Shown one piece after another: positions 644-38,913 of a DNA stretch of 50,150 nucleotides. The notes below the pieces were generated by a model. That model saw nothing but the letters and a program-made list of their open reading frames with translations. It was not told the origin of the DNA and searched no databases. The number at the start of each line of letters is the position of its first letter. The first letter of the stretch is position 1. Position numbers and translations under genes: made by a program. Source of the DNA: Alphaproteobacteria bacterium (GTDB lineage: Bacteria; Pseudomonadota; Alphaproteobacteria; SMXP01); the NCBI GenBank assembly GCA_028285305.1, contig JANQPV010000076.1:1-50150 (forward strand), read 5' to 3'.

Positions 644-3600
644 CTATTCTAGCACTATTGTCTTCTTGAATTTCTCTTCGTCGAGACCATTGACGAAACC
701 TCTCAACTGATCTGCATTATGTCGGCTCAAACCATGGAGGTCGATCACCAACACATCTAGATTCGTTTTTCCATCCAGATGATCTAGTGCGGCGTTGATC
801 ACCTTGTTGTAATTGAAAAAGCGATCCGGAATTCCTCCGCCCACGGCATCGTAAGTGAGTTGTGTATTTGGATCAACCCAGTCTGGCCCCTTGCCTTGAA
901 CGTATCGTTGCAGAGCAACCTTTTGGTGTTGACTATCGAAGACGCGATTTTGTTTGCTTAGATACCTTTCTAGACGGATAGCGGTTGAGATTTCATTCGG
1001 TCTCATAGCCTGAGGTCCATTGTCGAACCCAAGATCCATGATACGTGCGACTTCTTGTGGCGTGGCGCCGTCAGGATAGAGCTCTTCAAAAATCCTGACG
1101 ATTTCCTTCTCGTCTGTGTCGAACTGACTTTGTTCGAACGTCCATTTTCGAGATGCTAGACCATTCTTAAGTTCATGTCTTACCTTGTGTTGCAAGTTAA
1201 ACTTCCATACTTGGCCCGGCGTTCGCTTCGCGGCTGCGCCGCTCCTTGCTTTCACTTGCATATGAACCGCATCGACCGCGTCGTCGAAGTCGATTTCGTT
1301 CGTCATGCTGCGCAAGACCTCGCGCCAGGCATCATCCGCGATGTCCGTAGGCGGTATATTGTGCCAGCGCCCGGCAATCGTTTCATCGACCATCCGCTTG
1401 AAGGCGGCCTCGTCGTCCAGGCCATCGTTCAAATAGCGCAAATAACGATCGGTCGCGTCTTTCGTCAGGTTGTTGGCGTCGCCGCCCGCCCGATTTATGA
1501 ACCCCCAAGAGCGGTTGCTGAGCGCGTCCCCCGGTGTTGGAGAGAAATCGGCGAAAATATCGCCCCATGATTCATTCAGACGGCGACTCGTTTTGGCCTC
1601 TGCATAGAAGTCGTCGGTAAACTTATTCGCGGGCCGACCGGTTCGCGTTAGCCGGGCAGCAAACTCCAATGCATCCTCTTCCGACAGACCATATTGGGGA
1701 TTGTCTCCGAGGCCGCGCCTCAAGAATTCGATGAATCTTTCGTTCACCACTCCATCCAGCTCGGGGTGTGAGCGGATGATTTCGCCTATTGCCTTCTCCG
1801 ATGGCGCTTCGGAGATAAGATGCCTGAGATCCGGCGCCGCATACCCGGGCGATTCTGCGGCCTGCAGGCCGATCTTGGGTTCACTGCGGCTGCCAAAAAC
1901 CTTGGAAAACGCGACGTCGAGCGAAACGCCGTCCTCTACCGACGTGCGTACCACATGGTCAAAAATGTCCGGTCGCAGCTCGCTCGGATTTGTGCGCCGC
2001 GCGCCCAGTTCCTCCGCCATGCGTAGGGCGTCTTCCGCCGGGATCCCCGCCGCCAGCGCCCTGTCGTTGAAATCAATAATCTGGGCGGCGGTTTTGACGT
2101 CAAATCCCGGATCATCGCCAAGGTAGGCTCGCGCCCAATTCTTAAGCTCCCCCGTCGTGTGGTCAAAACCCCGCCGCAGCACAGGCATTAGGACTTTGGC
2201 TCCGGCAATCTGCACGCCCGTGAGCCCGAGCTGCGCCCCCGTTCCATAGGCAGCCGCGATCAGATCTCTAGTAAACGGCACCGTGGTCTCGGCCCCCAGG
2301 GCGTCACCCACCTGGGTTCTTGCGCGGCTGGCCGCAATATCGGCCAAAGCACCAACAGCCATGCCGGATAAGAATCCCGGTGCTGCTGCTCCGGCCGCCA
2401 ACCCGATAACTCCGTAGTAAGCGAAGTCGTAGACAAGGCTGACCTCGTCCTGGGGCGACCAGCCCGGCCGGTCATAGTAAAACGCCGGACCGTCCTTTCC
2501 CGCCGGCAAGAGTATAATGTTGCCCTCGGGATCAATATCGACATCCGCACGCGGATCGATTTTGCCCCACTGTTCGATAAAGATCTGCCCAGCGCGAATG
2601 GGGTCGCCGTTGGCGCCGAATACCATTTGCTGGCGTACACGTTTGGCAATGTTCTTGATGGAGCGTTTGCGCGCATTGTACTTGCGGCGCTCTTGATTGG
2701 TTCGCGGTTTGGGCCAGTTGGCCGTGGCTTCGCGCAAAATATCGTCGAATCTTCCAAGATCTTCGATTCCAAATTCAAGAAGGTTATATCCCCTTTCCTT
2801 CGTATACTGTAAGCCGCCCGTGTCACGGAGATGCGCATAACCCGGTTTGTTCGAAGTGTTCGCGAGCTTTTTCCAGGCCGTGCGTGCGTCAGTCCTCCAA
2901 TTTCCGCCCGTGCGATACCAGTCTTTGGCGCCTGATGCCTGCGATCCGTTGCCACTTGATTGGCCCACCAAGTGCAGGAGCGGGTTGGGCGCCACGCCCT
3001 CTTGACCACCGTCACTTAACGTCAATGGCCCGATGCCCGCGGGGTCTTGGCCAGATAGGAGACTGTCCGCACCGGACAGATCTTCAAAGAGGATGTTAGC
3101 CGGCTGACCCGTTACCCCGTTCCATTCTTGGAGCTGGAAGTAGACAGGTTGGCCCACGCCTTCTGTGTTCAGGCGGCCGCTTGCGTCGACCCAATGGCCG
3201 GTGGGCAGCGCATGCCCCGGCGACAACGTAACTTTGGGTTCATTTGCAGGTTTGCCGCCGCCTTGCGGACTCCAAGGCTTAGGAAGACTATGGATTACCG
3301 AACTGGGATCCACATGTGTGACCGCCGGCACCGAGGCGCCATAGGAGCTTATCCGCACCCCGGTCTGCGGGTCACTCGTGACTTGCTGAATGTTTCGGTC
3401 TTGGGGTTGCGAAGTTTCACTTTCGAGACCGTTCGCCCTTTCCGCAGCATGGGCCGTTCCAAAGAGCGCGCCGCTAACCGTTTTGCCAACCTGCCGGGCC
3501 GTCTCGCCCAAACCACGCATAACGTGCTTAAAAGCTTCCGAACGCTCTTGCTCGTCCGCGATGGGCGAGGGCCCCCAGGGTGACCGCATTTGACCCGTTG

Positions 3601-4321
3601 TAGAAGACGTCAAACCAGGCGGGCCGTCCCACGGCGTCAACGAAACGTCGTTTTGCTCTTTGGGCGTACTGAAACCTATAGGGCGCGCGTTCTGTACTCC
3701 CCAGTCAGTGGCCTGGTGCGGACCGTAGCCGTGCAGTGGCCGGTCGGTCAGAGGTGCGCCCAAGTCGTTCGTCTTGCTCCGATGGGGATAGGGCGGCAAG
3801 GGAGGCAAGTATCGATGCCGGTTCAATGCGCCGACCGATCCAGGCATAGAGAAATGATCTGAACGCAACGGAGAGTACTCGTCAGTGTACATATTTCGTG
3901 TGCTGGGCGCCCCCCTCCTCAGTTGACTATTGTCCGCTTCGAACGTCCGCCGGAGCGGAGCATATTGTTCCAGTCGACTCGTAGGTGCAGTGGCTTGCTG
4001 TCCGATCAATGATTCCGGTTCCACTCCTCGCCTTTGAGGTATACTCGGCGGGGTTTCACTGGATTCGTACACATCAGAACCGTCATTGGCTTCAGCTCCG
4101 ATATCTCGGACTGGCGATAATCCCAGTCCTGCCTTATCCAAGGCCTCTTCTAGTTGCTGCTCTACGCTCTTGGAAGGCTTTTCAGCGTTTCTTGAGCTGT
4201 CGAGCTTGGACTTCAAACCGACTGCCTCGTTGACAATCTCTTCCAGTTTCTTGCGCCAATCAATTTGGCTTGGATCGGAGGGCGTTGCGTCTTGCCTCCG
4301 CTTCGTAGACTTGGATTTCAT
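644..4321 (-). CDS. Large polymorphic-toxin-like cargo protein with CdiA-CT-like nuclease end
   Basis: A 1225-aa protein. The first ~450 residues are low-complexity and hydrophilic, with no signal peptide. Residues ~570-805 match the end of the 818-aa protein at 30709-33165 (shared pattern GN.D..R...IF...W, then GN.ILLP.G.DG, YYY/FYYDRPG), followed by alanine/glycine-rich hydrophobic helices at ~630-720. Residues ~745-1020 form helical repeats built on EDA...A and F......G.S. patterns. The last ~125 residues (YDAVGGG..., LDVLVIDLHGLS, TIVLE) resemble restriction-endonuclease-fold tRNase ends of contact-dependent toxins; YDA and the D of VIDL would be the acidic positions. Partner genes lie downstream. 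The large size, the shared central module and the position after the adhesin cassettes suggest a virion-delivered effector. The toxin call is by pattern only. Confidence 0.75.
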   Translation of the reverse strand: MKSKSTKRRQDATPSDPSQIDWRKKLEEIVNEAVGLKSKLDSSRNAEKPSKSVEQQLEEALDKAGLGLSPVRDIGAEANDGSDVYESSETPPSIPQRRGVEPESLIGQQATAPTSRLEQYAPLRRTFEADNSQLRRGAPSTRNMYTDEYSPLRSDHFSMPGSVGALNRHRYLPPLPPYPHRSKTNDLGAPLTDRPLHGYGPHQATDWGVQNARPIGFSTPKEQNDVSLTPWDGPPGLTSSTTGQMRSPWGPSPIADEQERSEAFKHVMRGLGETARQVGKTVSGALFGTAHAAERANGLESETSQPQDRNIQQVTSDPQTGVRISSYGASVPAVTHVDPSSVIHSLPKPWSPQGGGKPANEPKVTLSPGHALPTGHWVDASGRLNTEGVGQPVYFQLQEWNGVTGQPANILFEDLSGADSLLSGQDPAGIGPLTLSDGGQEGVAPNPLLHLVGQSSGNGSQASGAKDWYRTGGNWRTDARTAWKKLANTSNKPGYAHLRDTGGLQYTKERGYNLLEFGIEDLGRFDDILREATANWPKPRTNQERRKYNARKRSIKNIAKRVRQQMVFGANGDPIRAGQIFIEQWGKIDPRADVDIDPEGNIILLPAGKDGPAFYYDRPGWSPQDEVSLVYDFAYYGVIGLAAGAAAPGFLSGMAVGALADIAASRARTQVGDALGAETTVPFTRDLIAAAYGTGAQLGLTGVQIAGAKVLMPVLRRGFDHTTGELKNWARAYLGDDPGFDVKTAAQIIDFNDRALAAGIPAEDALRMAEELGARRTNPSELRPDIFDHVVRTSVEDGVSLDVAFSKVFGSRSEPKIGLQAAESPGYAAPDLRHLISEAPSEKAIGEIIRSHPELDGVVNERFIEFLRRGLGDNPQYGLSEEDALEFAARLTRTGRPANKFTDDFYAEAKTSRRLNESWGDIFADFSPTPGDALSNRSWGFINRAGGDANNLTKDATDRYLRYLNDGLDDEAAFKRMVDETIAGRWHNIPPTDIADDAWREVLRSMTNEIDFDDAVDAVHMQVKARSGAAAKRTPGQVWKFNLQHKVRHELKNGLASRKWTFEQSQFDTDEKEIVRIFEELYPDGATPQEVARIMDLGFDNGPQAMRPNEISTAIRLERYLSKQNRVFDSQHQKVALQRYVQGKGPDWVDPNTQLTYDAVGGGIPDRFFNYNKVINAALDHLDGKTNLDVLVIDLHGLSRHNADQLRGFVNGLDEEKFKKTIVLE

Positions 4322-4783: not shown

Positions 4784-5389
4784 TCACTCCCCGGGCATAA
4801 AGAGCTCTTGCGAGCTCTTGCCAGCTTTCATCATGTTTCGCTGTCTCCACTCACTTTGGAGTGCTGCCCATTCACCGGTATCTTCGTAGAAAGAATAAGC
4901 GACGGCGCCATTTGGTACACTGACAATGTCACCAGGTTCGGTCTCTATCACGTCCCCCGGCGCCATTTTCTCGCCGTGGAATTCGATCTCGCCTTTACCC
5001 AGAAACAGAAACTCGAAGTTCACAAAAGTGTGGTTGCCGGCTGTTAACGAACGTGGCCACAGTCTAATCCAATTCGACGTCACGCACCAAACCACCAATA
5101 GATCCTCGCCGACCGAGTAGACTTTATTCTTAAGTATGCCCGTTCGGCCCATATATTCTTGAGCATACGAGCAGTCCGGCGCTTCGACTTCCCACCCCAG
5201 ACCTTCGATTAGCTCGTTATCTTCTGTGTACCACACGCTCTTCATTTTGCCCTGGGTGACGACGCCGTGGGTCAGCCATATCCAAGGCTCCTCAAGGACA
5301 ATCTTGTGACCCTCGATAAAGTCGTCCTTGTTCTTTGCCGCCCACCTGACGACGTGGACAGGTCCAAACTCTCTCAATTCACTGTACAT
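4784..5389 (-). CDS. Cupin-like beta-barrel protein, adhesin cassette copy 3
   Basis: A 201-aa protein and third gene of the adhesin cassette. The C-terminal half has a cupin-like strand pattern (FVNFEFLFLGKGEIEFHG, then MAPGDVIETEPGDIVSVPN) but lacks the usual metal-binding histidine set, so an enzyme is doubtful. Its paralogs are at 6842-7429 and 9135-9710, each in the same place after the ~105-aa gene. The start at ATG 5389 matches the paralogs, which all open a few residues before a conserved RW, and overlaps the preceding gene by 11 bases as copy 1 does. A role in adhesin folding or as a tail-tip component is inference. Confidence 0.75.
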   Translation of the reverse strand: MYSELREFGPVHVVRWAAKNKDDFIEGHKIVLEEPWIWLTHGVVTQGKMKSVWYTEDNELIEGLGWEVEAPDCSYAQEYMGRTGILKNKVYSVGEDLLVVWCVTSNWIRLWPRSLTAGNHTFVNFEFLFLGKGEIEFHGEKMAPGDVIETEPGDIVSVPNGAVAYSFYEDTGEWAALQSEWRQRNMMKAGKSSQELFMPGE

Positions 5390-5690
5390 CGACCTTAAAA
5401 CTCCCGACGTGGTGAGGAGTAGAAACAAATTTTCCGCCTGACTGGCGAATTTTATGTTGAATCTTTTCGCCTGCGTACTTCTCCAAGATATCCCGGTTGG
5501 AAAAGCGGTCCTGCCGGTCCTCCAAGACTTGTAGCGGCGCGGCCTCTATGAGCAACTTTTTCAACTCCTCATAGGAGGTCAATGATGTGCCTTGGTGTTT
5601 TACTCGGACCAACTCCTCTACGCCGCCTACGGCGTATGATACCAACATGTTCTTTCGATTGTAGTCTCTGATCTCCATTTCTAAAATCAT
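5379..5690 (-). CDS. Conserved small adhesin-partner protein, copy 3
   Basis: A 103-aa protein. The start at ATG 5690 overlaps the stop of the adhesin gene as ATGA, the same coupling seen in the other two copies at 7426-7749 and 9700-10008. All three share a beta-rich opening (D.N....EVSY...G.EE) followed by a helical charged segment. The family is not recognised. A constant place between adhesin and cupin-like protein suggests an adhesin chaperone or tail assembly factor; this is inferred from position. Confidence 0.78.
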   Translation of the reverse strand: MILEMEIRDYNRKNMLVSYAVGGVEELVRVKHQGTSLTSYEELKKLLIEAAPLQVLEDRQDRFSNRDILEKYAGEKIQHKIRQSGGKFVSTPHHVGSFKVDVQ

Positions 5691-6502
5691 GCTACTGTTC
5701 CGTTCCTTGTTCCTGTTGCTGTCCATGTGATTTCGGAGTTTCCTTGTACGGCGTTTCCTCCAGAACCCCCTCCACCTGGACCAATAGTTGAGCCGCCGGT
5801 ACCGCTTGAGCCTGTGGCACCTTTGCCTCCGCCATTACCTCCTGGATGAAGAGTGGCGCCACTCCCGCCAACACCTCCGCCTGTCGCCGTGCCCACACCC
5901 GGTGAGCCAGCTCCAGTAGCAGCGGCCCCGCCTCGACCGAAACCGCCCCCTCCACCGGCACCTGTAGCGGAGATTTTTCCTCCGGTCGTTGCACCCCCGG
6001 CACCGCCGCCGCCGCCTCCACCACTAATTTCACCGCTTGTGTTGTCCACATCAATCACCGTGCCTGACAATTGAGTGTCGACTTTGAACGCCGTTCCTCC
6101 AACTGCACCACTGTCTCCGCTGCCTGCCCCTCCAGCTCCGCCCATGCCATGGATCTCTCCGTTGTTCGTGATGGATACATTGGAACCAGCAGGGAGCTGA
6201 TCAATTTGAAAGCCCGCGTTTGCAGTATTTGTAGAATAGACGTGTATGGAGGCATTTATCGTGATCGTTGCAGTGACGACGTCGGATTCATTCCAGCCGC
6301 CGGAAACGAGTTGGTCGTACAAGTCATAATCTGCCGTGTGCTCCGAGATGGTCTCTGAATAGGTGAACCCGGCCGAAAAGACCTGCCGCCATACACCACC
6401 TGATTTCACCCAGACTTCATCACAATCGCTCCACGCTCCGCTGTGTTTAACATGGATGGCATCAACCTCTCTATACGAACCACTATGATGAATATGGCTC
6501 AT
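5687..6502 (-). CDS. Glycine-rich phage tail adhesin, copy 3
   Basis: A 271-aa protein. Residues 1-~45 (MSHIHHSGSYREVDAIHVK, VWVKSGGVWRQVF) form a conserved phage tail-attachment type opening. Residues ~50-125 are a beta-rich domain (TITINASIHVYSTNTANAGF), and from ~115 on the chain is a series of glycine-rich stretches like the polyglycine-II sandwiches of T-even gp38-type receptor-binding adhesins. The N-terminal ~120 residues are nearly identical in the three paralogs, while the glycine-rich part varies, as expected for host-range determinants. A decayed fibre 3' end lies just upstream, and the ATG overlaps its TGA. Confidence 0.85.
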   Translation of the reverse strand: MSHIHHSGSYREVDAIHVKHSGAWSDCDEVWVKSGGVWRQVFSAGFTYSETISEHTADYDLYDQLVSGGWNESDVVTATITINASIHVYSTNTANAGFQIDQLPAGSNVSITNNGEIHGMGGAGGAGSGDSGAVGGTAFKVDTQLSGTVIDVDNTSGEISGGGGGGGAGGATTGGKISATGAGGGGGFGRGGAAATGAGSPGVGTATGGGVGGSGATLHPGGNGGGKGATGSSGTGGSTIGPGGGGSGGNAVQGNSEITWTATGTRNGTVA

Positions 6503-6720
6503 GCGTATATATGCCAGACGTCGCCGTCGGCACTCCCTTTAGTAATCGTGTCTGTTAAAGCCGCAACCGCGTTGACACGGAAGCGATCGAAACCCACTGA
6601 GAAACTCGTAGACCGATCGGCCCTAAGTCGACTGACTTCTACGCAATTATCTGTAGAATGATCGGTCATTAAACGGGCTGCCGTTTACGAAATGACGATG
6701 TCCTCACTGTATTCATATGT
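6499..6720 (-). pseudogene. Relic of tail fibre 3' end before adhesin copy 3
   Basis: Read on the minus strand, this stretch still encodes the end of the tail fibre of 10859-12295: the relic gives LMTDHST, FDRFRVNAVA and ADGDVWHIYA-stop where the fibre has LVTDHSI, FDRNQVNAVA and ADGDVWYVYS-stop. The ATGA overlap with the adhesin start is preserved. A stop codon and frame changes interrupt the upstream part, so it is not a functional gene. It marks the point where the adhesin cassette was duplicated. Confidence 0.82.
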
Positions 6721-6841
6721 TGCCAGGCAATCGTTCATCTACTTTTTCAGCTTTTTCGTTCCAGTGGTTCAGGCGGCCGCCTCTTGGCTCTTGGGCCAAC
6801 TGGCACCGGCGACAGGGTTTGCAATGCGAGAGTTCGTAGAG

Positions 6842-7429
6842 TCATTTCCGCGCCGCTTTTTCCTCCGCCCAACGGGCCGCATATTCCAGCATTAGCGCTT
6901 CATATCGGTCATCGTCTTCGTAAACCCCAAACCACTCTTCTCCATCGGGGATGCGCTCTATTTCTTCCGGATCGAAGAACTCGCCCCCATGAGCACCTTG
7001 AGCGCAGAACAGCCATGCATAATCCTGGATGTCGCGCTGTTGCGCCTTAAGGTTTTCCGGCCAAAAAGGGGTGTTTTTGTTGTAGAGGCACCAACAAATT
7101 AAAGGGTTCGTACCACGGGTCGTGCTGATCCCTTTCAAGTAGTCGTACTCGCCTCCGAAATAAAAAGACATCTGACTGTCTTTAAAGGGCCTTAGGACTT
7201 CATTGTGGGGACCCGGTATTAGGTTGCCTTCTCTGTCGTACCATTTCCCGTCGAGCTCGCCGCGCACGATGATAAGGGCCGAACCGATCCACATATAGGG
7301 CTGTTTCAAGTCGACCCACTCCGTTGCAAAAGTAGCACCCGGCTCATCAGCATCGTCTATCCAGCGCGATAGGACGTATCCGTCACTCTTGGCGGCATGA
7401 TCTTTGATCAATTGTTTCTTCACGGTCAT
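6842..7429 (-). CDS. Cupin-like beta-barrel protein, adhesin cassette copy 2
   Basis: A 195-aa paralog of the proteins at 4784-5389 and 9135-9710. The shared features are an N-terminal RW, a W/F..I/L beta strand region around residues 40-60, CW or YCW near the middle, and a C-terminal GG..F.PEE.E..PDGEEW segment with the cupin-like strand order. ATG 7429 overlaps the preceding gene as ATGA. This copy diverges most in the C-terminal barrel. Cytoplasmic or virion-associated; function unknown. Confidence 0.75.
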   Translation of the reverse strand: MTVKKQLIKDHAAKSDGYVLSRWIDDADEPGATFATEWVDLKQPYMWIGSALIIVRGELDGKWYDREGNLIPGPHNEVLRPFKDSQMSFYFGGEYDYLKGISTTRGTNPLICWCLYNKNTPFWPENLKAQQRDIQDYAWLFCAQGAHGGEFFDPEEIERIPDGEEWFGVYEDDDRYEALMLEYAARWAEEKAARK

Positions 7430-7749
7430 ATCAGGTTTCCTTCTTCTGGATTGAAGTCTTCCTGATCATCAGCGTACCGAAAGGTCTGCGCAACTCTGTC
7501 CCGCTTCACCTTTATCTCGATCTCTTTGTCTTCCAGCTCCTCTAAAAGACGGGCATCATTACCAATCGCAATCTTCTTCTCAATCTCCGCAATGGGCGCG
7601 TGCCGTTTGACGAGACGGATGTACTCCCGCCGAGTCCCGATTTCGGTTTTCGGTTTGTTAATTCTCTTGATCACCTCCACACCAGCGATGACGTAGGAAA
7701 CCTCAAGATACGTAGGGTGAATATCGAGTAGTCTAACTTTTAGCTTCAT
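7426..7749 (-). CDS. Conserved small adhesin-partner protein, copy 2
   Basis: A 107-aa protein, paralogous to 5379-5690 and 9700-10008. The opening KLKVRLLDIHPTYLEVSY and a charged helical second half are the conserved features. It is translationally coupled on both sides: ATGA overlap with the adhesin stop and ATGA overlap with the cupin-like start. No recognised domain. Confidence 0.78.
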   Translation of the reverse strand: MKLKVRLLDIHPTYLEVSYVIAGVEVIKRINKPKTEIGTRREYIRLVKRHAPIAEIEKKIAIGNDARLLEELEDKEIEIKVKRDRVAQTFRYADDQEDFNPEEGNLI

Positions 7750-8579
7750 GATACCGTTCCATTCCTAGTGCCTATGTCCGTCCAAGTAATTTCTGAGTTC
7801 CCTTCAACTGAATTGCCTCCAGATCCTCCGGACCCCGCGCCAGTATACTGACCTCCTGTCCCACTCGCGCCTTTACCACCACCGTTTCCACCATTGTTGA
7901 TGTCTGGAGAACCACCAGTTCCCCCGCTTCCTCCTCCTGAAGCGGTCCCGGCATTACCGGGCGACCCAACAACGGTTCCACTTCCGCCAGCACCTCCAGT
8001 TGCGCCACCGCGACCAAAACCGCCGCCGCCGCCACCGCCACCAGATGATGCTGATTTTCCCACCGCCAATCCACCGGCACCCCCACCCCCACCGCCACCA
8101 TTGATTTGCCCCGAAGCGTTATCGACGGATATGGTGGTTCCGGATAGTTGCGCATCTACTTTAAGGCCTGTCCCTCCGTTTGCTCCGTTTCCGCTGCTGC
8201 CGTTCCCTCCAACTCCACCCATCCCATGAATCTCCCCATTGTTTGTTAGCGTGACAGTAGAATCGGCCGGCAGCTGATCAATTTGAAAACCCGCGTTTGC
8301 AGTATTTGTCGAATAGACGTGTATGGAGGCATTGATCGTGATCGCCGCCGTGACCACGTCGGATCCATTCCAACCGCCGGAAACGAGTTGGTCGTAAAGG
8401 TTATAATTGGCCGTATGCACTGAGATCGTCTCAGAATAATCAAACCCGGCGGAAAAGATCTGGCGCCATATGCCACCTGATTTCACCCAGACTTCATCAC
8501 AGTCGCGCCATGCGCCACCATGCTTAATGTGGATTGCATTAATATCTCTATACGAACCACTATGACGAATCTGGCTCAT
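7746..8579 (-). CDS. Glycine-rich phage tail adhesin, copy 2
   Basis: A 277-aa paralog of the adhesins at 5687-6502 and 10005-10862. Its N-terminal ~125 residues match copy 3 almost residue for residue; the glycine-rich region differs in loop sequences and lengths (for example GGSGTVVGSPGNAGTASG). It ends like the others in ITWT.IGTRNGTV. A candidate receptor-binding protein at the tail tip. A frame-broken copy of the fibre end precedes it, and the ATG lies within the former fibre stop. Confidence 0.85.
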   Translation of the reverse strand: MSQIRHSGSYRDINAIHIKHGGAWRDCDEVWVKSGGIWRQIFSAGFDYSETISVHTANYNLYDQLVSGGWNGSDVVTAAITINASIHVYSTNTANAGFQIDQLPADSTVTLTNNGEIHGMGGVGGNGSSGNGANGGTGLKVDAQLSGTTISVDNASGQINGGGGGGGAGGLAVGKSASSGGGGGGGGFGRGGATGGAGGSGTVVGSPGNAGTASGGGSGGTGGSPDINNGGNGGGKGASGTGGQYTGAGSGGSGGNSVEGNSEITWTDIGTRNGTVS

Positions 8580-8847
8580 GTGTAGACTTACCTGACGTTT
8601 CCACCGGCACCCTCTGAAGGCGTTGTTTCCATCGCAATCACTAGGGCGTTAACTCGATTGCAATCGAAGACCTCTGAAACTTTCGCGGAGCCATAGGCCG
8701 TGAAGCGGCGTACGAGACCGACAATTTGTTTGTGCCTCTGCCGATTTGCCTGCAATCGGCCGCAGACCAATCCGCAATTAAACTGAAAGTGGTTGCCGAT
8801 GTGTCAGCGATTTCATTGCCTTCATTTATTGCCCAGTAGACTTTCAT
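8576..8847 (-). pseudogene. Relic of tail fibre 3' end before adhesin copy 2
   Basis: The minus strand encodes VYWAINEGNEIADTSATT, then ADCRQIGR, then after a frame change VFDCNRVNALVIAMETTPS and GNVR-stop. These align with YYVFAIEV.., DTSATAANLV, NYREIGRF, VFDRNQVNAVAVTTQTTPS and GDVWYVYS of the intact fibre. One frameshift and a Tyr-to-stop change inactivate it. A GGAGG box precedes its first ATG at 8847, so a short peptide could still be made, but I read it as a duplication scar. Confidence 0.82.
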
Positions 8848-8904
8848 CTTTTCCTCCAGGTCCTTTTGCTTCTTCTCAACGGTCAGGTTCTTCTTCAGTC
8901 CGGA

Positions 8905-9134: not shown

Positions 9135-9710
9135 CTAATCGCCTCTGTATCGTTCCCATGCAGAATCAATTAGCGACTGCAGTCTTCCATCATCTTGGTA
9201 TGCGGCCCATGCTGTCACTTCATGCGGCACTTCGATCGTATCCCCCTGTTCCATAAAGGTGTAATCGCCAGGGTCCAAGATCTCACCATCCACCTCCAAG
9301 CGCCCATGAGAGACCATAACGTATCCGTCGTCTGTAAAGGTGTACGTGCCGGTCGGCATGGCATCCGGCCAAAAGACAGCATCATCCGATGACCAACAAT
9401 AGAACACGGCGCGTTCATCATCAGTGTTCCAAAGCTTTGATGTGAACTTCCCGACTTCACCGAGATAGGTGAACTTTTCATTTGCCTTGGATTGGTCGGC
9501 ATCACCTCGAAGAACTTGGGTTCCGTCTTCGCGAACCCACTCATACCAACCCAGTTTTCCGCTATGGCGATTGCCTCCTGTAATGCTGGAGAAAATGTAA
9601 AAGGGTTCGGCGAGCTCATGCTCCGCACCGCCCCAATCGCCTGCTTCTATTATCCAGCGACCGACTGTAAAGGGGCCCGAGTGATCAATTAGTGAGTATT
9701 TAGTCGTCAT
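9135..9710 (-). CDS. Cupin-like beta-barrel protein, adhesin cassette copy 1
   Basis: A 191-aa protein in the cassette that directly follows the intact tail fibre, so probably the ancestral copy. The cupin-like pattern is clearest here: YVMVSHGRLEVDGEILDPG, DYTFMEQGDTIEVPH, then AWAAYQDDGRLQSLID. A single histidine at each strand makes metal binding uncertain. It starts at ATG 9710 (MTTKYSLID), overlapping the preceding gene by 11 bases. A structural or assembly role at the tail tip is inferred. Confidence 0.78.
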   Translation of the reverse strand: MTTKYSLIDHSGPFTVGRWIIEAGDWGGAEHELAEPFYIFSSITGGNRHSGKLGWYEWVREDGTQVLRGDADQSKANEKFTYLGEVGKFTSKLWNTDDERAVFYCWSSDDAVFWPDAMPTGTYTFTDDGYVMVSHGRLEVDGEILDPGDYTFMEQGDTIEVPHEVTAWAAYQDDGRLQSLIDSAWERYRGD

Positions 9711-10008
9711 CTTTTTGTACCAACTTTGCTTTAGATGGTTTTATTGCACTGCGTTCTTCACGAAGGAGACGCACCGTCAGATCTACGTCTTCGTGCTGCT
9801 CCAACAAATCGTGGTTGGGATAGATCTTGGACCGTTTCTTCAGCTTCTCGACCGGGATATGCTGACCAAGGTACTCCCTTAGCCCCTTCCGATTCTGCAA
9901 TTCACCTGTTGGTGTAGGGACAATTACGATCTCTTCCTTACCCCGAAACACATACGACACTTCGATCGTCGATTCGTTGTGGTCTAGTATTTTCATGGTG
10001 ATCTTCAT
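9700..10008 (-). CDS. Conserved small adhesin-partner protein, copy 1
   Basis: A 102-aa charged protein (MKITMKILDHNESTIEVSY...). ATG 10008 overlaps the adhesin stop as ATGA. Homologous to the genes at 7426-7749 and 5379-5690 by its opening strand and the following RK..L/I..Y segment with K/R-rich helices. No known family. It moves as a unit with its adhesin, which argues for a partner function such as folding or attachment. Confidence 0.78.
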   Translation of the reverse strand: MKITMKILDHNESTIEVSYVFRGKEEIVIVPTPTGELQNRKGLREYLGQHIPVEKLKKRSKIYPNHDLLEQHEDVDLTVRLLREERSAIKPSKAKLVQKDDD

Positions 10009-10862
10009 GATACTGTTCCGTTTCGCGTTCCTGTAGCCGTCCAGGTAACGTTGGAATTACCGACGACCGCGTTGCCAGCGGCCCCACCAGCTTGCCCGCC
10101 AGTTAGAGTGTGATCGGTACCAGCGCTGCCAGCTGCACCTTTACCGCCTCCATCTCCGCCTAGTACATTCGCTGCTCCGCCGGCTCCCCCTCCAGTGGCA
10201 GTTCCGGATGAGCCATTAGCAGCCCCCTCGCCCCCGGTGCCTGCTGCTCCACCAGCCGCCGCACCGCGGCCAAAACCTCCACCGCCGCCGCTGCCAGGGT
10301 GGTTTGTAGTAGCCTTAAAAGTGATCTGGCCCGAGCCACCACCACCGCCACCACCGCCGCCACCGTTGATCTCTCCAGCGGCGTTGTTAACAGTGACCGT
10401 CGTACCGGACAGTTGAGTTTCCACCTTTAATGCAGCGCCTCCAGCGGCACCTGCTGTTCCGGTGTTTGAGTTGTAGTTATCGCCGTTTCCGCCAGCGCCC
10501 CCCATACCGTGGATCTCGCCATTGTTTGTGATCGTAATGCTTGACCCCGCCGGGAACTGATCTACTTGGAATCCCGCATTGGCGGTACTCGTAGAGTACA
10601 CATGGATGGATGCGTTGATTGTAATCGTTGCGATGACGGCGTCGCTTTCGTTCCAGCCATCCGTCACCAACTTATTGTAAAGATCGTAATCCGCCGCGTG
10701 GGACGAGATTGTCTCCGAGTACGAATAATCCGTCGTAAATACCTTGCGCCAGACCCCGTTGTCTTTGACCCAAGCCTCAGAACAGTCGCGCCACACACTC
10801 CCTTGTTTAATGTGGAGGGCGTCAATCTCTCTATACGTTCCACCTTGACGAATATGGCTCAT
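10005..10862 (-). CDS. Glycine-rich phage tail adhesin, copy 1
   Basis: A 285-aa adhesin using ATG 10862 (MSHIRQGG), which overlaps the tail-fibre TGA as ATGA; a longer frame to 10877 is possible but less consistent with the paralogs. It has the same N-terminal attachment segment (YREIDALHIKQGSVWRDC) and beta domain as copies 2 and 3, then a glycine-rich C-terminal half with seven or so polyglycine blocks. It is the only copy behind an intact fibre, so it is likely the original. Expected at the distal tail as a receptor-binding protein, by resemblance to gp38-type adhesins. Confidence 0.85.
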   Translation of the reverse strand: MSHIRQGGTYREIDALHIKQGSVWRDCSEAWVKDNGVWRKVFTTDYSYSETISSHAADYDLYNKLVTDGWNESDAVIATITINASIHVYSTSTANAGFQVDQFPAGSSITITNNGEIHGMGGAGGNGDNYNSNTGTAGAAGGAALKVETQLSGTTVTVNNAAGEINGGGGGGGGGGSGQITFKATTNHPGSGGGGGFGRGAAAGGAAGTGGEGAANGSSGTATGGGAGGAANVLGGDGGGKGAAGSAGTDHTLTGGQAGGAAGNAVVGNSNVTWTATGTRNGTVS

Positions 10863-12295
10863 GAATAGACATACCAAACATCGCCGTCAGCGCCACCTGA
10901 AGGCGTTGTTTGAGTTGTAACCGCCACGGCGTTAACTTGGTTGCGATCAAAGACGACTGAAATATTTGCGGACCCATCGGTAATAAACCGGCCGATTTCT
11001 CTGTAGTTTGTGATGGAGTGGTCCGTCACTAAATTTGCTGCGGTCGCGGAAGTATCGAAGCCTACGTCTGCCGCTCCGGACACCTCGATTGCGAATACAT
11101 AGTACTCAGTGTTGTTTGCCGGCGTCAGCGTGGACGAAAGACCTCCAGCATTAGTTCCCGAAGCCCACGAAGCGTCCAACTGTTTGGTTAGCGCTGAGGC
11201 AATGTCGAGGTTGCCATCGTCGTCCGCATTGCGGCATGAACCTGCAGCAATATCGATGTCATGTTCCGCATCGGTACTGTTCACGGTGACGTCGAGGCCA
11301 GAAAGAAAGCCGGGCGGGTAGTTGGGGTTGATAAAACTCAATGCGCCCGCGCCGTCCGTTCGTAAAATCTGATTGGCCGAACCATCGGCGGCGGGAAAGG
11401 TTACCGGTCCTTCCTCCACGGCATTTCCCGCAGAATTCGACTTCAATAGGCGATGAGCATTCAACGTGCCGGGTGTGTCTGTCAGAGCCACAAATGTCGA
11501 AGTCGCCGTTAAGCCGGTGATCAGTACATTTTCAAGATCGGTATCGCGGACCTCGAATGGAGAGGCAACCGTATTGGCTTCGATCTGTACGTGGGAGAGT
11601 TCAAATGTGACCGCTCCCTCCGACACCGGAACATGTAAACGAAACTTCGTATTATCGTCTGCATTACTTCCCAATATTTTTCCTGATACGGATGGGATGG
11701 CCATTTGGATGGTGTACTTAGTCCAAGTAGTATCGAGAGTCACTTGAGATGCGTCTGACGTGACATCAGATGACGGACTTCCTCCGGTCCCAAAGTGCTG
11801 CACATTGGTGATCTCGAGAGAAGGCGTTCCGGCCGACGCGCGAGCCCAAAATGTCATAGTCACCGTCTGCCCGCTAAACCGAGCGACGGTGGGGACTTGG
11901 TGATACAGTCCGGACACAGTGGACCCGACAACCGACCGAGCCCAGCGCAAATAGTAGGTTGGATTATCCGGAACGGCCGTCTGTCCGACAGCGAATGTTT
12001 GACGGTCGATTTGAACCGTGGCACCTGTTCCTTCAGTTAGGTACCAGCGATCCGCCGTTTCTTCGCCATCGCTCGAAAACGTCGTGCCGTTCGACCAGAC
12101 CTGAAAGTCGCCGTTCAGGGCCTTGTTTCTGAAGGCGGTGCCGAACTTATAAGACTGCTCCATGCCCAATGCGATATCATCAAACATGGCATCGAATTTG
12201 GTGGACGAGATGAAATGATTGGGCGCCCCTGCCCCTGCATCTGTCGTGAAGTCATAGAGCAAGTCGAAAGTGTAGCTGGACGTGTTCCACGCCAT
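10859..12295 (-). CDS. Phage tail fibre with carbohydrate-binding-like domain
   Basis: A 478-aa protein. Residues 1-~50 (YTFDLLYDF, STKFDAMFDDIALGMEQSY) are typical of N-terminal virion-attachment regions of short-tail phage fibres. Residues ~60-240 (NGDFQVWSNGTTF, ADRWYL, then a beta-sandwich ending FELSHVQIE) look like a carbohydrate-binding module. Residues ~260-478 are beta-rich and end in GDVWYVYS. ATG 12295 has an AAAGGAGC ribosome-binding site. The stop overlaps the adhesin start. Fragments of this 3' end recur before both other adhesin copies. Confidence 0.88.
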   Translation of the reverse strand: MAWNTSSYTFDLLYDFTTDAGAGAPNHFISSTKFDAMFDDIALGMEQSYKFGTAFRNKALNGDFQVWSNGTTFSSDGEETADRWYLTEGTGATVQIDRQTFAVGQTAVPDNPTYYLRWARSVVGSTVSGLYHQVPTVARFSGQTVTMTFWARASAGTPSLEITNVQHFGTGGSPSSDVTSDASQVTLDTTWTKYTIQMAIPSVSGKILGSNADDNTKFRLHVPVSEGAVTFELSHVQIEANTVASPFEVRDTDLENVLITGLTATSTFVALTDTPGTLNAHRLLKSNSAGNAVEEGPVTFPAADGSANQILRTDGAGALSFINPNYPPGFLSGLDVTVNSTDAEHDIDIAAGSCRNADDDGNLDIASALTKQLDASWASGTNAGGLSSTLTPANNTEYYVFAIEVSGAADVGFDTSATAANLVTDHSITNYREIGRFITDGSANISVVFDRNQVNAVAVTTQTTPSGGADGDVWYVYS

Positions 12296-12922: not shown

Positions 12923-14035
12923 CTATTCCGCGACGCCGCGGCGCAGATTACTCAACTCGCGATCCAGTTCCTTCACGCACATGAGCAGAACCCCTATCGC
13001 ATCAATCACCGATATGTCCCTCCCATTTCCTCCGAACAGGCGGGCCCATTCTTGGGCGGTGGGCCCAATGTGGAGCTCCGTACCGAGACCCAGATCTTCG
13101 TTGTAGCGCCAAGTTCCGACATGCATCTTGCCTACTTTGCCCAAGAACCGTTTCGCATCGCCGAAGTCATGCTTCTGGGTTTCATCGGAAAGGGCGATAA
13201 GGCCTGATGCCAGCGATCCACCCAATTCCAAGAGGCCCGACTGTCGGCTTTGTCTGGCCGCTTGTTGAGCCTGCCAGTTGTTGTTGGCCATTTGGGCGCT
13301 GTTGTAGATGGCTCCCATAACGTCCGGCGCTGCGACGTTATGATAAGTCGGGGGAAGCCCTTGAGGTGCTGTCAATGCCGGGGCGCCCTGGATGAAACCC
13401 GAGGCTTCGTTGAAATCCTGCGTGCGTTTAAGCAATTCTTCTTGAAGCGCGCGGTTTCGAACATCTGTATCAATACCATATTGCCTCGACTGCTCTTGAT
13501 TTGCGTAGAGTTGCGCTTCACCCGCCAAGCGACCCAGTTGTTCGTTTTGTGCGCGGTCTAGCCGATCGAGTTCGATCCGAGCACGTTGGTTGGTGGGGTC
13601 GATGCCACGGTTGTACAGAGACCGTTCGAGGTCCTGTCTTTGTTGCTGGAATTCGGGGCGCAGTGTGTCGGAGACCCGGTTATAGTAAGTCTGCGCCACA
13701 TTGCTCGTGTCTTGTGGACGGGCTTGCGGAAGACCGCCTAAGGTGAATGCGCCCTGGGGCATATTCATCGCCGCCTCGTATGCACGATCGTGTATAACGT
13801 TTGAGATCTGATTTTGTTTATCATAGATCTGTTGCTGATGCGGCGAAAACGAAGTGGTTCGCGTTGGATAGTACAAGTCCTTCGTCCAGGTGACGTTACC
13901 AAATGGCGTTACTTCATTGATGCGATTGACTTGTGCAGATTCTCTAACCGCCTCCCGGTTTGCTTGCGCTTGGGCCCTCGCTGCCGCATACGGATCAGGT
14001 GGCGGCGGCGGTGCCGGACTGCTTTTCTTTCCCAT
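12923..14035 (-). CDS. Phage virion protein with C-terminal S74-like chaperone domain
   Basis: A 370-aa protein. The N-terminus (KKSSPAPPPPPDPYAAARA, then VTPFGNVTW) is the proline-rich opening seen in many podophage tail or internal proteins. The middle (~130-250) is Q/N/R-rich and coiled. The C-terminus (~285-365) reads LSDETQKHDF, WRYNED, HIGPTAQEWA and IDAIGVLLMCVKEL, matching the intramolecular chaperone (peptidase S74) found on phage fibres, with the SD motif at the expected self-cleavage point; whether it still cleaves is unknown. Its ATG overlaps the GNAT stop as TAATG. Confidence 0.82.
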   Translation of the reverse strand: MGKKSSPAPPPPPDPYAAARAQAQANREAVRESAQVNRINEVTPFGNVTWTKDLYYPTRTTSFSPHQQQIYDKQNQISNVIHDRAYEAAMNMPQGAFTLGGLPQARPQDTSNVAQTYYNRVSDTLRPEFQQQRQDLERSLYNRGIDPTNQRARIELDRLDRAQNEQLGRLAGEAQLYANQEQSRQYGIDTDVRNRALQEELLKRTQDFNEASGFIQGAPALTAPQGLPPTYHNVAAPDVMGAIYNSAQMANNNWQAQQAARQSRQSGLLELGGSLASGLIALSDETQKHDFGDAKRFLGKVGKMHVGTWRYNEDLGLGTELHIGPTAQEWARLFGGNGRDISVIDAIGVLLMCVKELDRELSNLRRGVAE

Positions 14036-14578: not shown

Positions 14579-16117
14579 TTAAATAAGGTGCGCGGGTTCG
14601 ACCACGTATCCGGTCGCCTGCCATTCAAGTGCACCACTCGACGTCACGGACATTTTCATTCCGAAGGCACGCCCCTGTTGGGCTGCACACCAATCTGCGT
14701 AATACGAAATCTTGTTGCCGTTCCACGACACTTGATCCCATTGGCTCTCGTCCCAAACGGGTGCGCCGCTATATACTCTGGTTGCAGCATTTGTCAGGTC
14801 CGGAAACTCCGCATAATCGGCGCCAGAAGAAAGTTGCAGCGCGGGTTGTACGTTCCCGGACAGTATGGGTCGAATGAACTTCATCGCACCTTCACGGCCG
14901 CCAAACGGGCGGATCCAGGCCGGGACTGCAACGGCGGTTATGGGCACGCCGGCGTCATCAAAACCGCGGTCCGATTCGTAGACTTTACCGTTCACGCCAC
15001 CGCAGAAAAGGCGGTTGTCAAACACATGCCAGGCTTTGCCGTTTTGACCGGTAAAGCGTGTCCAGGATTGAGTTCTGGTGTTCATGACATACTGGTGCCA
15101 GGTATCATCCGAAACCGGAACGTTGACCAGAACCATATTCGCCCTGGGGTACGGTTCGATTTGCCATCCCTCTAAAACCGTTGTCCGCCGGATCAAGTCC
15201 CTAAAGGCGTCACCCAACTTATCATTTAACGTAGGCGGACCAAGTGAACGCCCAAACGCAAATGTTTGCGTCAGAGGCGAAACGCCGCGCCGGGTGGTAA
15301 TCAACAGATCGGCGCCTGAGTTCGCAAATGCTCTTCGGTGAAGAGGTTCGCCCACTTCAAAGACACCGACGAGGGCCCAATTGCTCGCCCCCGGATCGTC
15401 CCCTTGATAGACTATGGCTTCGCCTCTTGACGTGAACAGGACCATCAAATCATCCGTACCGTCACCGCCATCCTGGGTGATTGTCGCGCCCGCGACCAAT
15501 GTGCCGCCACGCACGCCGCCCCCCATTCCGGCGCCAAGTAAATTGAACTTCGTTAGGTCACCCGTCACGCCTGCCAGATCACCGTACCAAAGATTGAGCG
15601 TGTTCTTCTCTATGAAGTAGAGCCGGCTTTTGAAGGCAAAGACATGATTGAGCGCCGATGGGTTTAAATTTGCACCCACGAATCCGGCCGGCGACACCGT
15701 GATCCCATTGAATACCTGGGGTTCGTCTGCACCGGAATTATTGACAATAAAGACACGCTCAGCAAATTCTTGGGCAATCCAATCATTGTCAGACAGGCCC
15801 GACTTTAGCAAAAACGGACTTGAACTGGTCACATCGAACAGTTTGCCGTTCGCCGCCGCCACGAGGCTCTTGCGGCCGGCAGCGTCGTAACTGAACATGG
15901 AATCAATATAAGCACCTGTTTGGCCCGTATCCGCGTGCGCCATCATTCCCCGCCGAATTTGCAGCGTGTTGCCGACTTGGTACCAATTGTCCAGAACGAC
16001 AGCGTCCGTGGGCTCCATGGCGCTCAAAGGATCGAGCCCGTTGATGCCGCCTACAGGGGCCGGGATCTCTATCTCTTGGGCATGATCAAGGGTTGCCTCT
16101 TCTAAGGCTTGTCTCAT
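14579..16117 (-). CDS. P22 gp10-like tail nozzle / DNA stabilisation protein
   Basis: A 512-aa beta-rich protein. It opens with a phage-typical PAPVGGINGLDPL, then MEPTDAVVLDNW and QIRRGM, followed by repeated beta-propeller blades (LVAAANGKLFDV, HVFAFKSRLYFIEKN, RGEAIVYQGDDPG, VFDNRLFCGGVNGKVYE). This matches the packaged-DNA stabilisation or nozzle family of P22-like podophages (gp10). In P22, gp10 follows gp4 directly; here roughly 17 kb of toxin/immunity material separates the gp4-like gene at 33194-33892 from this gene. Virion tail component. Confidence 0.82.
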   Translation of the reverse strand: MRQALEEATLDHAQEIEIPAPVGGINGLDPLSAMEPTDAVVLDNWYQVGNTLQIRRGMMAHADTGQTGAYIDSMFSYDAAGRKSLVAAANGKLFDVTSSSPFLLKSGLSDNDWIAQEFAERVFIVNNSGADEPQVFNGITVSPAGFVGANLNPSALNHVFAFKSRLYFIEKNTLNLWYGDLAGVTGDLTKFNLLGAGMGGGVRGGTLVAGATITQDGGDGTDDLMVLFTSRGEAIVYQGDDPGASNWALVGVFEVGEPLHRRAFANSGADLLITTRRGVSPLTQTFAFGRSLGPPTLNDKLGDAFRDLIRRTTVLEGWQIEPYPRANMVLVNVPVSDDTWHQYVMNTRTQSWTRFTGQNGKAWHVFDNRLFCGGVNGKVYESDRGFDDAGVPITAVAVPAWIRPFGGREGAMKFIRPILSGNVQPALQLSSGADYAEFPDLTNAATRVYSGAPVWDESQWDQVSWNGNKISYYADWCAAQQGRAFGMKMSVTSSGALEWQATGYVVEPAHLI

Positions 16118-17425: not shown

Positions 17426-18835
17426 TTAAAATCTAGTTCGAGGCGCAAAACGTGTCCTGAGCCAAGCTTCTGATAGATCCGGTAACTCTACTTCGAATGC
17501 CGGTTCGCCCGCTCCAGCCGGCGTAATTTGCAATCGCGTACCTTTTCGCTTCGAGCCAACGACCTCCTGCCGCGTAATGGGTATAGTAGGATGTTGATCA
17601 TCAAGAAGTTCGCCCCCGGCGGAATACATGCTCCACCAGACATCAAGCTGCTTTTCTTCTACTTGTTCGAATTCCGAAATCACTATCTTGACGTCTAGTC
17701 CGGCCTTGCCCGCGAGCAAATCTCTAATGTGTTCCCACTCGTCTTTGTCCTTAGTCCTCTTGTTTTTCAAGAGCTCTTCGGCAACTCTGATAACTTCCGA
17801 TACCGGAACCGGATATATTTTCCGATCCACTTCGCGTTCTTCGACACCATTGGAAAACCAGTTGTAGTGCGTCCTATATTCAAAACCGGTAAGAGGATCG
17901 CGAAGCTTCATCGTACGCTCTTCCGGATTGCTCTCAACCACGACGAAGGGTTCATGAAATGCGCCGTCCTCATCCGGCACCCTAAGATAGGGTGACGATA
18001 GACTGAGAGTTTGCAGGACGCTTCTAACAACACGATCCTCACTCGGAATAAAGTTCTCTTCTCCCGCCCCATTGTTCAGATTGTCGAAGAATTCGTCCCA
18101 CGCCTGTTCATAGGCGGAATTTTCTTCTTGGTGCGTATTCCTTCTTTTTATAGCTTCCTTGTTAGCCTTCTGTTCTCTATTGATGTTCGTCTCATCTTGC
18201 CCGAAAGCGGCAGCGCGTTCCTCTTCCGCCGGAGGCGGAGGCAGCCGGTACCCGCCCTCATCGTATGCGCCGGGATCGCCCGCGACTGTCTTCATCCGGT
18301 TTCTCTCTTCAGGATGGCGGTACTCTGCACCCGCACCAATGCCGGGTACGCGGTTCTGTTTTCCGGCTAACACGTTCTCCTCCCGGCCGTGTTCCGGAGT
18401 GAGTGCCAAAGCCAAGATTGTGCCTTTGCTCTCGAGTCCTGGTAAGGAGCGGCCTGTCTTCCACGACGCCGGAGAACCGATGGATGCGCCGCGGGGCATG
18501 AGAACGTTCCTTAATGCCTGGGACATGTTTTTGAGATCAAGTCCCGGTATGGGCGATGCATCTTGGCTGGTGGCGGCAGGAGCTTTTCCCACAGAGGACT
18601 CTGCCGGGATGTCCGTGAGCGTTGTGCTTGCCGGCCGGGTATTGGGTAGCGTTGCCAGAGCTTGATCGGCGGCCTTTTGGGCCGCTTGTGCATTATCGAA
18701 CTTGGGCCCGCCGTTCCGGCTTGTACGGCGCACGGGCAGTCCAGTACGTGTGTCGATGCAGACCCGCCCCCCAAGCGGATAGAATAATGTCTTGAGGCAC
18801 TTTGTATCGTCTTGGTCGCCTTTTGGTTGAGACAT
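17426..18835 (-). CDS. 469-aa cargo / toxin-like protein of unknown activity
   Basis: A soluble 469-aa protein without a signal peptide. It starts at ATG 18835 behind a very strong AAGGAGGAGCTC. Residues ~60-200 are Pro/Ala/Gly-rich linker like the other cargo proteins; residues ~290-469 look folded (YRTHYNWFSNGVEE, LDVWWSMYSAGGELLDD). The C-terminal domain is not recognised. A relic of the gp4-like 3' end lies just upstream, exactly as before the 651-aa cargo gene, so this gene occupies a duplicated cargo slot. A toxin role is inferred from position and from the downstream secreted TPR protein. Confidence 0.65.
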   Translation of the reverse strand: MSQPKGDQDDTKCLKTLFYPLGGRVCIDTRTGLPVRRTSRNGGPKFDNAQAAQKAADQALATLPNTRPASTTLTDIPAESSVGKAPAATSQDASPIPGLDLKNMSQALRNVLMPRGASIGSPASWKTGRSLPGLESKGTILALALTPEHGREENVLAGKQNRVPGIGAGAEYRHPEERNRMKTVAGDPGAYDEGGYRLPPPPAEEERAAAFGQDETNINREQKANKEAIKRRNTHQEENSAYEQAWDEFFDNLNNGAGEENFIPSEDRVVRSVLQTLSLSSPYLRVPDEDGAFHEPFVVVESNPEERTMKLRDPLTGFEYRTHYNWFSNGVEEREVDRKIYPVPVSEVIRVAEELLKNKRTKDKDEWEHIRDLLAGKAGLDVKIVISEFEQVEEKQLDVWWSMYSAGGELLDDQHPTIPITRQEVVGSKRKGTRLQITPAGAGEPAFEVELPDLSEAWLRTRFAPRTRF

Positions 18836-18863
18836 GAGCTCCTCCTTATACTTATTATGTTTT

Positions 18864-18935
18864 GACTTGCTCGCCAGTTCCGTTCCGATATGTGGTTTTC
18901 GCGTGGGCGGCGGTCGGTACGGGCAAGGCTAACTT
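18864..18935 (-). pseudogene. Relic of gp4-like 3' end
   Basis: On the minus strand this encodes EVSLARTDRR and then ISERNWRAS. It aligns with the last residues of the intact adaptor at 33194-33892 (AVSLARTDRP, VPQRNWQVS). The stop codon has been lost. It lies between the orphan-toxin relic and the 469-aa cargo gene and marks an old duplication of the junction between adaptor and cargo. Confidence 0.75.
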
Positions 18936-18963
18936 CACGGGTGAAGCTGCTCGCCCAAGTCTC

Positions 18964-19371
18964 TTAAGCCTGCCGCTCACCCCGACGAACAAGGGCGATG
19001 GCCTTATCCTCTCCGTATTCGAAAACGTCCTTGACACCGCCCGAACCTAAGTGCGCGCCCAGGTCCCCCTGGGAGACGCTCGTCATGATGATCAGCTTAT
19101 CGATCTCGTGCCTCTGATCCGGCGTGATCAGTATTTGAGGCGCGGTGTCCGGCTGGGCTTGAGATGGCGGCGTCTGGATGATGGGGCGTTCCTTGGGGAT
19201 CGGAGAACTGAGGATGCCGTCCCCCTTGTCGCGGTCGTTTATGGAATAGCCCGGGTTTATTGCAAACTCCTCCGTGTCAGGAGGTACTAATCCGGGCGTA
19301 GCAAAGCCGCGCCCTTCTTGCAGGCGGGCCGCTTCTTGCCGGAGGACCTTTTGATATGCTTCGTGGTAGTC
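18964..19371 (-). pseudogene. Truncated orphan toxin module (linker plus start of kinase-like tip)
   Basis: An open stretch of 135 codons that opens just after a stop with DYHEAYQKVL, continues through RLQEGRGFATPGLVPPDTEE, IQTPPSQAQPDTAPQILITP and LGSGGVKDVFEYGEDKAI, and ends at TAA. The first part equals the linker of the 651-aa cargo; the second equals the first ~60 residues of the kinase-like toxin at 28549-29187. It has no start codon or body, so it is a dead fragment that retains the recombination joint. Confidence 0.82.
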
Positions 19372-19746: not shown

Positions 19747-20007
19747 TCACTCCTTTGGAACGACTATGCTGGGACTTCTGGCGATTGCCGCTTCTTCGCT
19801 TTCAAATATCATGAAATCCACGTCCCTTCCAACAAGTTGGCTAAGTGCCTGCTGCATCTCGCGAAGGCCCAACTTCTCAGCTTTCTCAGGGCTTTTGTTG
19901 GGAAGTGGCCCGGTCCGTGTTTTCTTGGATCTCATCTCCACACCGGCTTCCCTGGCCTTGGCGACGAGTTCAGGACCAGCAATCACGCGCTTTGTCCTAC
20001 CCTTCAA
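19747..20007 (-). CDS. 86-aa conserved protein, copy A
   Basis: A small basic N-terminus followed by an acidic, helical C-terminus (PELVAKAREAGVEMRSKK, LREMQQALSQLVGRDVDF). Nearly identical to 27888-28148. ATG 20007 overlaps the preceding DUF4288-like gene by four bases. Not recognised. It always sits between a DUF4288-like gene and the LLFG-domain gene, so the three form one inherited cassette. Confidence 0.72.
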   Translation of the reverse strand: MKGRTKRVIAGPELVAKAREAGVEMRSKKTRTGPLPNKSPEKAEKLGLREMQQALSQLVGRDVDFMIFESEEAAIARSPSIVVPKE

Positions 20008-20411: not shown

Positions 20412-20458
20412 AGATTCTTCTCTGCTGACTTGATCTCGACTTGTGCCGTCTCAAGATG

Positions 20459-20875: not shown

Positions 20876-20934
20876 CGATTTTTCTCCGCCGCTAACAACG
20901 AATTAATTGATGCAGGGACTGCCCTATAACTCGG

Positions 20935-25268: not shown

Positions 25269-25346
25269 GGGTTTCCGCGCAGAGCCTATGATATTGCGAA
25301 GTACAGATGTTCGAGACGCGTTAGATCAAGGACGCGCCTCGCTTGT

Positions 25347-38904: not shown

Positions 38905-38913
38905 AACCTGTCC

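Follow-up and report, generated by a model that had tools for sequence, protein, structure and literature searches.

A tail fibre gene followed by three adhesin cassettes

The DNA analysed here (the window) is an entire contig (C40) of 50,150 base pairs (bp) from a source genome of 5.4 Mb in 77 contigs; judged by its gene content, it is a phage-like DNA element. Our subject is its tail fibre locus, in which a single fibre gene, the sole full-length copy found in a whole-genome search with the 478-amino acid (aa) fibre protein, is followed by three cassettes (A, B and C) that share one layout and one orientation: an adhesin gene, a gene of ~100 aa and a gene of ~190-210 aa. Fibre stubs, or scars, stand upstream of adhesins B and C. 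The features of the locus, in the order in which they are read, are:

10859-12295, minus strand: intact tail fibre gene, 478 aa, ending PSGGADGDVWYVYS; phrog_4492 and phrog_25042 (tail fiber), E-values (E) 7e-41 and 3e-31
10828-10862, minus strand: joint core in A, ATGAGCCATATTCGTCAAGGTGGAACGTATAGAGA
10005-10862, minus strand: adhesin A, 285 aa, start overlapping the fibre stop (ATGA); PF05268 GP38, 50.9 bits; phrog_10745 and phrog_2056
9700-10008, minus strand: cassette A gene 2, 102 aa, without family match, with a counterpart in every cassette
9135-9710, minus strand: cassette A gene 3, 191 aa, possibly cupin-like
8752-8887, minus strand: 5′ continuation of scar B; the 5′ portion is common with scar C and absent from the present fibre
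8710-8741, minus strand: insertion of 32 nucleotides (nt) shifting the frame within scar B, from the alignment with the fibre
8580-8713, minus strand: scar B, decayed fibre 3′ end before adhesin B; 52% (aa) to fibre residues 434-477, E 2.5e-6, one TAA
8545-8579, minus strand: joint core in B
7746-8579, minus strand: adhesin B, 277 aa, intact open reading frame (ORF); PF05268 GP38, 38.4 bits; aa identity 62% to A and 75% to C
7426-7749, minus strand: cassette B gene 2, 107 aa; aa identity 28% to A and 24% to C
6842-7429, minus strand: cassette B gene 3, 195 aa; aa identity 21% to A and 23% to C
6643-6773, minus strand: part of scar C matching scar B; past ~6705 common with B and not with the present fibre
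6503-6705, minus strand: scar C, decayed fibre 3′ end before adhesin C; 51% (aa) to fibre residues 409-478, E 3e-14, one in-frame TAA
6468-6502, minus strand: joint core in C
5687-6502, minus strand: adhesin C, 271 aa, intact ORF; aa identity 65% to A and 75% to B
5379-5690, minus strand: cassette C gene 2 (longest ORF 5379-5726); aa identity 29% to A and 24% to B
4784-5428, minus strand: cassette C gene 3, up to 214 aa; aa identity 27% to A and 23% to B

Adhesins A and B were scanned with Pfam, where the curated cut-off for PF05268 is 25 bits, and C was assigned through its 75% identity to B; in the genome search, C also matches phrog_10745 (E 6e-24). By these matches all three are predicted Gp38-type (PF05268) adhesins, with a putative tip-binding and receptor-specificity role. 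The C-terminal part is glycine-rich in each, and the adhesin structure prediction was unusable (predicted local distance difference test score, pLDDT, 37.5). Gene 2 has no confident family match in Pfam or PHROG. Gene 3 may be cupin-like, a weak hint given by a Pfam cupin match below cut-off and by a low-confidence model in which the C-terminal half reaches pLDDT 70-84 and Foldseek finds cupin 3rns (E 7e-4).

Decayed fibre ends upstream of adhesins B and C

The whole-genome search with the fibre returned exactly two places besides the fibre itself, 6502-6705 and 8582-8713. A preliminary description of this DNA had reported a decayed fibre end in front of both extra adhesins, with the ATGA overlap between fibre stop and adhesin start still recognisable. 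Its coordinates were correct, and alignment of the three regions shows similarity well inside the fibre coding region; because the similarity runs this deep, the likeness is not confined to the adhesin start. Read in the fibre frame, scar C comprises ~70 codons with one stop and no net insertion or deletion (indel), and scar B aligns over ~60 codons, again with one stop, once the 32-nt insertion is omitted. In a fibre-only nucleotide comparison that excluded the adhesin, both scars scored 52, versus 15 ± 2 in dinucleotide shuffles (maximum 20-22, n = 200). The decayed ends thus retain 45-70 fibre codons at scores far above those of shuffled sequence. Over the last 45 codons, nucleotide identity is 71% for A-B, 64% for A-C and 59% for B-C.

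The sequence CATGAGCC, in which the fibre stop TGA overlaps the adhesin ATG, is found at all three joints, so the overlap is intact before both B and C. The pattern of the joint core has 3 matches in the window, with 0.00 expected. Adhesin codons 1-18 (10808-10862, 8525-8579 and 6448-6502) diverge unusually little at silent sites whichever pair is compared (0.20-0.29), and this could reflect either recent exchange or a constraint on translation start.

Scars B and C share a further ~75 nt of 5′ sequence that has no counterpart in A's fibre (score 24 versus 12.4 ± 1.8; 0 of 500 shuffles as high). Since the present fibre lacks this sequence, the stubs are not plain copies of it, and they appear to derive from another fibre allele.

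Uneven divergence along the cassettes

The three adhesins are not near-copies, being 62-75% identical at the aa level (A-B 62%, A-C 65%, B-C 75%). Between B and C, silent-site divergence stands at 0.45 across the stub and the adhesin up to codon ~102 and rises to 0.80 past that point; none of 1000 permutations gave as strong a break. Weaker breaks were located at adhesin codon 18 for A-B (17 of 1000 permutations) and at codon 25 for A-C (30 of 1000). Further downstream, aa identities for AB, AC and BC are 28, 29 and 24% in gene 2 and 21, 27 and 23% in gene 3, so that by these genes B is no nearer to C than either is to A. Copying of whole cassettes predicts even divergence; the jump between B and C, together with their unlike genes 2 and 3, therefore argues against the simple duplicates that the preliminary description had envisaged. 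The cassettes have a common joint and are nested in length, with differing payload, and this combination points to exchange at shared homology as opposed to copying.

Stub decay and constraint on the adhesins

For B and C, the ratio of non-synonymous to synonymous divergence (dN/dS) is ~0.5 in the stub versus 0.14 in adhesin codons 1-102 (Fisher p 0.004 when 60 stub codons are counted and 0.015 when 45 are). The orphan adhesins were therefore probably still under selection while the stubs upstream of them lost function. Codon models assign ~0.2-0.4 neutral-equivalent changes per site to each of the two stubs. Relative ages, which had been expected from divergence, can thus be estimated roughly and no more finely than this. 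Codon models fitted to the stubs alone cannot separate former functional fibre ends from function loss at the split. A joint clock for stub and adhesin favoured a functional phase of the B/C fibre end by 10 log-likelihood (lnL) units; it was not relied on, as it assumes one history along the cassette, which is doubtful given the break points.

The joint in other phages

A search probe that spanned the fibre end and the adhesin start identified the same joint, P(S/T)GGxDGDxW.. in the fibre followed by MS..VKVSGxWK in the adhesin, in 15 other phage or prophage loci, one joint each. Phage CHOED and a prophage from the same phylum (L037) are among them, and 9 of the 15 have the ATGA overlap. In these loci the joint connects otherwise unrelated fibres to unrelated tips and so offers a natural point of exchange. 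When loci were searched one by one with tblastn, the window serving as positive control, none of the 14 other loci tested showed a second adhesin start; this analysis superseded a regular-expression search for second joints, which overlooks the window's own B and C. The joint thus appears to be widespread, and within this limited sample the stacked array with stubs appears only in this element. Related prophages identified through the gp10-like protein lack this adhesin locus. A limited search of the open-access literature turned up no account of fibre tips stacked together with fibre stubs.

Proposed displacement of tips and its alternatives

Tail tips are swapped between phages, and usually only the outcome is seen. 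Here the intermediates seem to have been retained, as old tips with stubs of the fibre they once ended. On balance, we read the locus as an array of three interchangeable fibre tips built by displacement, and we give tip displacement a slight preference over plain duplication as an account of it. The intact fibre runs into tip A through the fibre-end/adhesin-start joint, and B and C each open with an equivalent joint and a fibre 3′ stub in the same orientation. The cassettes are most alike around the joint and beyond it are divergent alleles of old standing. The conserved joint would have supplied the homology for swapping the current tip for an incoming or neighbouring one. Where the far end of such a swap lay outside homology, through homology-facilitated illegitimate recombination or through tandem duplication with unequal ends, the old tip would have moved downstream along with its fibre stub instead of disappearing.

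All three adhesins have retained a common N-terminal docking part, so B and C may remain usable. They might be expressed in small amounts and dock on the same fibre, or alternatively rejoin the fibre through recombination that removes the intervening tips. A stronger proposal is that the array functions as an archive of ready alternative tips behind a universal joint, with host range changed or widened by recombining a stored tip or by docking several. We regard this as doubtful; if true, the archive would be a passive, recombinase-free counterpart of invertible tail-fibre switches. Were tip displacement itself confirmed, displacement arrays known from bacterial toxins would also build receptor-binding-protein repertoires, and the widespread joint (PSGGxDGDxW / MS..VKVSGxWK) would be a defined exchange point with a testable role in host range. 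Extra adhesin genes beside a fibre would also call for caution, as they may be stored or accessory tips and not recent duplicates.

Several observations weigh against displacement. The break points for A-B and A-C are only nominally significant, being uncorrected for three comparisons, and alignment of the glycine-rich parts is uncertain, so that silent divergence may be overestimated in them; genes 2 and 3 nevertheless agree. Exact matches of A to B and to C now reach no more than 15 and 14 nt, which is too little for RecA to promote efficient exchange today. The element has no close relative among the collections covered: searches of viral contigs with the adhesin alignment, adhesin B, the fibre, the fibre end and the gp10-like protein gave distant matches only, as did genome contigs searched with the adhesin alignment, 60 relatives and 398 genomes of the phylum. 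Consequently there is no locus with B or C on an intact fibre, and the order and direction of events are not polarised; these we only infer. Tandem duplication, moreover, is clearly active elsewhere in the element.

Serial tandem duplication in place is the main competitor. On this view a segment spanning the fibre 3′ end through gene 3 was duplicated twice; the stubs would have been non-coding ever since, with rapid divergence of the adhesins and of genes 2-3 and with gene conversion preserving the similarity of the joint. The copies are indeed all contiguous and in direct orientation, many tandem duplications with flanking gene fragments occur on the same contig, and the 5′ extension common to stubs B and C fits this history as well. 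A codon model with stubs non-coding since the fibre split also describes the stubs no worse than one that includes a coding phase (lnL difference ~1 for two extra parameters). What makes serial duplication somewhat unlikely is the uneven divergence along the unit, along with genes 2 and 3 of B and C being no closer mutually than to A; stubs as old as the split between the A and B/C adhesins should also be far more decayed. In the joint clock, non-coding stems are 10-25 lnL units worse than a coding stem, with the reservation that the single history assumed is questioned by the break points.

The ATGA overlap kept before both B and C would suit stubs that serve as short functional leaders, the remnant fibre-end ORF being translated and the overlap coupling translation into the orphan adhesin. 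The low silent divergence of adhesin codons 1-18 in all pairs is in keeping with this, as is stub C, which keeps the frame open over ~60 codons between an internal ATG and the overlap and has no net indels versus ~2-8 expected under neutral decay at 0.2-0.4 changes per site. Stub B, however, is thrown out of frame by the 32-nt insertion and meets a stop 9 nt ahead of the overlap, dN/dS between the two stubs is ~0.5, and no clear ribosome-binding site precedes the internal ATG of stub C. We consider leaders of this kind improbable. A tail-fibre array of the Mu/P1 type, invertible or switched by site-specific recombination, would resemble the locus in stacking alternative fibre ends and small downstream genes behind one constant fibre part. 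Site-specific inversion was rejected, and we assign it a negligible probability: the cassettes all point in the same direction, strong flanking inverted repeats are lacking, and the contig has no matches to the Resolvase or Phage_integrase families and so no serine or tyrosine recombinase gene.

Other genes and duplications in the element

The long genes of the contig lie essentially all on the minus strand. Virion genes outside the fibre locus are:

43762-44718: major head protein, phrog_9953
33194-33892: tail protein, phrog_6013
14579-16117: gp10-like stabilisation protein, phrog_5107
12923-14035: S74-type virion protein

Cargo is abundant between and behind the virion genes and is partly duplicated; self-similar stretches cover 12,081 of the 50,150 bases of the window. 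The preliminary description held that the fibre scars follow the same duplication style as the cargo genes and that the mechanism is general in this element. In support of this, duplications are abundant, and the last ~80 nt of the tail gene 33194-33892 recur, with an identical start point in the gene, in front of two cargo ORFs: at 25192-25271 (86%) before 23208-25163, and at 18863-18942 (63%) before 17426-18835. The homologous tail gene and the gp10 homologue are immediate neighbours in phage MW202489.1, whereas in the present element ~17 kb of cargo separates the two. These repeats look like stacking behind a virion gene, as at the fibre. The generalisation does not extend to the tandem lipoprotein genes 37582-38730 and 38914-39993 (78% nt identity), which carry a scar of another type. 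Between them, 38837-38913 is a 5′ stub of the downstream lipase-like ORF 35416-37572, and since this scar is the 5′ end of a downstream gene, it indicates an ordinary tandem duplication with random endpoints. Two modes or more thus seem to be at work in the element, tandem duplication and stacking at a gene 3′ end.

Additional repeats were noted along the contig. A short membrane-protein gene is present in three tandem copies at 40719-42112, with a period of ~462 nt and 80-84% identity. The motif APQILITPDQ starts ORF 28549-29187 and also occurs inside 23208-25163, where another C-terminal part follows it; 28975-29175 recurs as a 93% copy at 18946-19146. These two ORFs and the copy look like polymorphic-effector cargo with orphan ends. 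Immunity-like arrays often adjoin such cargo, and four paralogous ORFs of ~135 aa that start with VSTSKE, once VTTSKE, lie beside it at 20004-21342 and 28145-28552, placed like immunity arrays and with a putative role of that kind. The two large ORFs 644-4321 and 30709-33165 have a segment in common, ILLPxGxDGxxYYYxRPGxS..., which on visual inspection is reminiscent of phage DNA-ejection proteins; no Pfam or PHROG match was obtained.

Comparison with known systems

T-even phages have one Gp38 adhesin each. The adhesins described here resemble Gp38 in lying directly behind the fibre and in their polyglycine-rich C-terminal part, with Pfam matches above cut-off for A and B. They differ in that three stand in a row with fibre stubs, each accompanied by two further genes of a kind not known from T-even phages. 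In Vibrio phage CHOED (KJ192399), the fibre ends PSGGADGDIYLQYK and is followed by a glycine-rich adhesin 32% (aa) related to A-C, and a second gene, CHOED_011, ends in a similar fibre-end motif. There, however, the second fibre end is part of an intact gene with no adhesin behind it: this second short gene, at 7090-7842 of the CHOED locus (L014), ends GTGVDGDVYLQYT. The invertible Mu G and P1 C segments are built from ends in opposite orientation, inverted sites and an invertase; this array is directly oriented, with no strong inverted repeats and no Resolvase match on the contig.

A parallel is provided by the type VI secretion system (T6SS) arrays of V. cholerae, in which a new module arrives at a conserved gene and the old module is moved downstream with the displaced 3′ end of that gene, for which homology-facilitated illegitimate recombination has been proposed (PMC5361080). 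Both this anatomy and the proposed mechanism match the array described here. In the T6SS arrays the old effectors are lost and the immunity genes kept, whereas here the adhesins themselves are kept intact.

The orphan modules of Rhs and contact-dependent inhibition (CDI) systems likewise consist of a full-length gene followed by displaced ends with core fragments (PMC3150448, PMC5727410); C-terminal displacement in these systems was described by Jackson et al. (2009), as cited in the same two papers. The locus shares with them a parent gene that comes first, orphan ends in the same orientation, each headed by a fragment of the conserved part, and a conserved motif at the exchange point. The parent is intact, each of B and C has a parent fragment, and a sharp break between conserved and variable parts is present, more weakly so for A-B and A-C. 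Rhs/CDI orphans can be re-recruited by recombination, as B and C might be. The variable part here is a separate gene joined through the ATGA overlap, and the payloads are divergent homologues and not unrelated domains. Because each payload is an adhesin with two small genes, and not a toxin with immunity, the array would work like an Rhs/CDI array but is not a member of that class.

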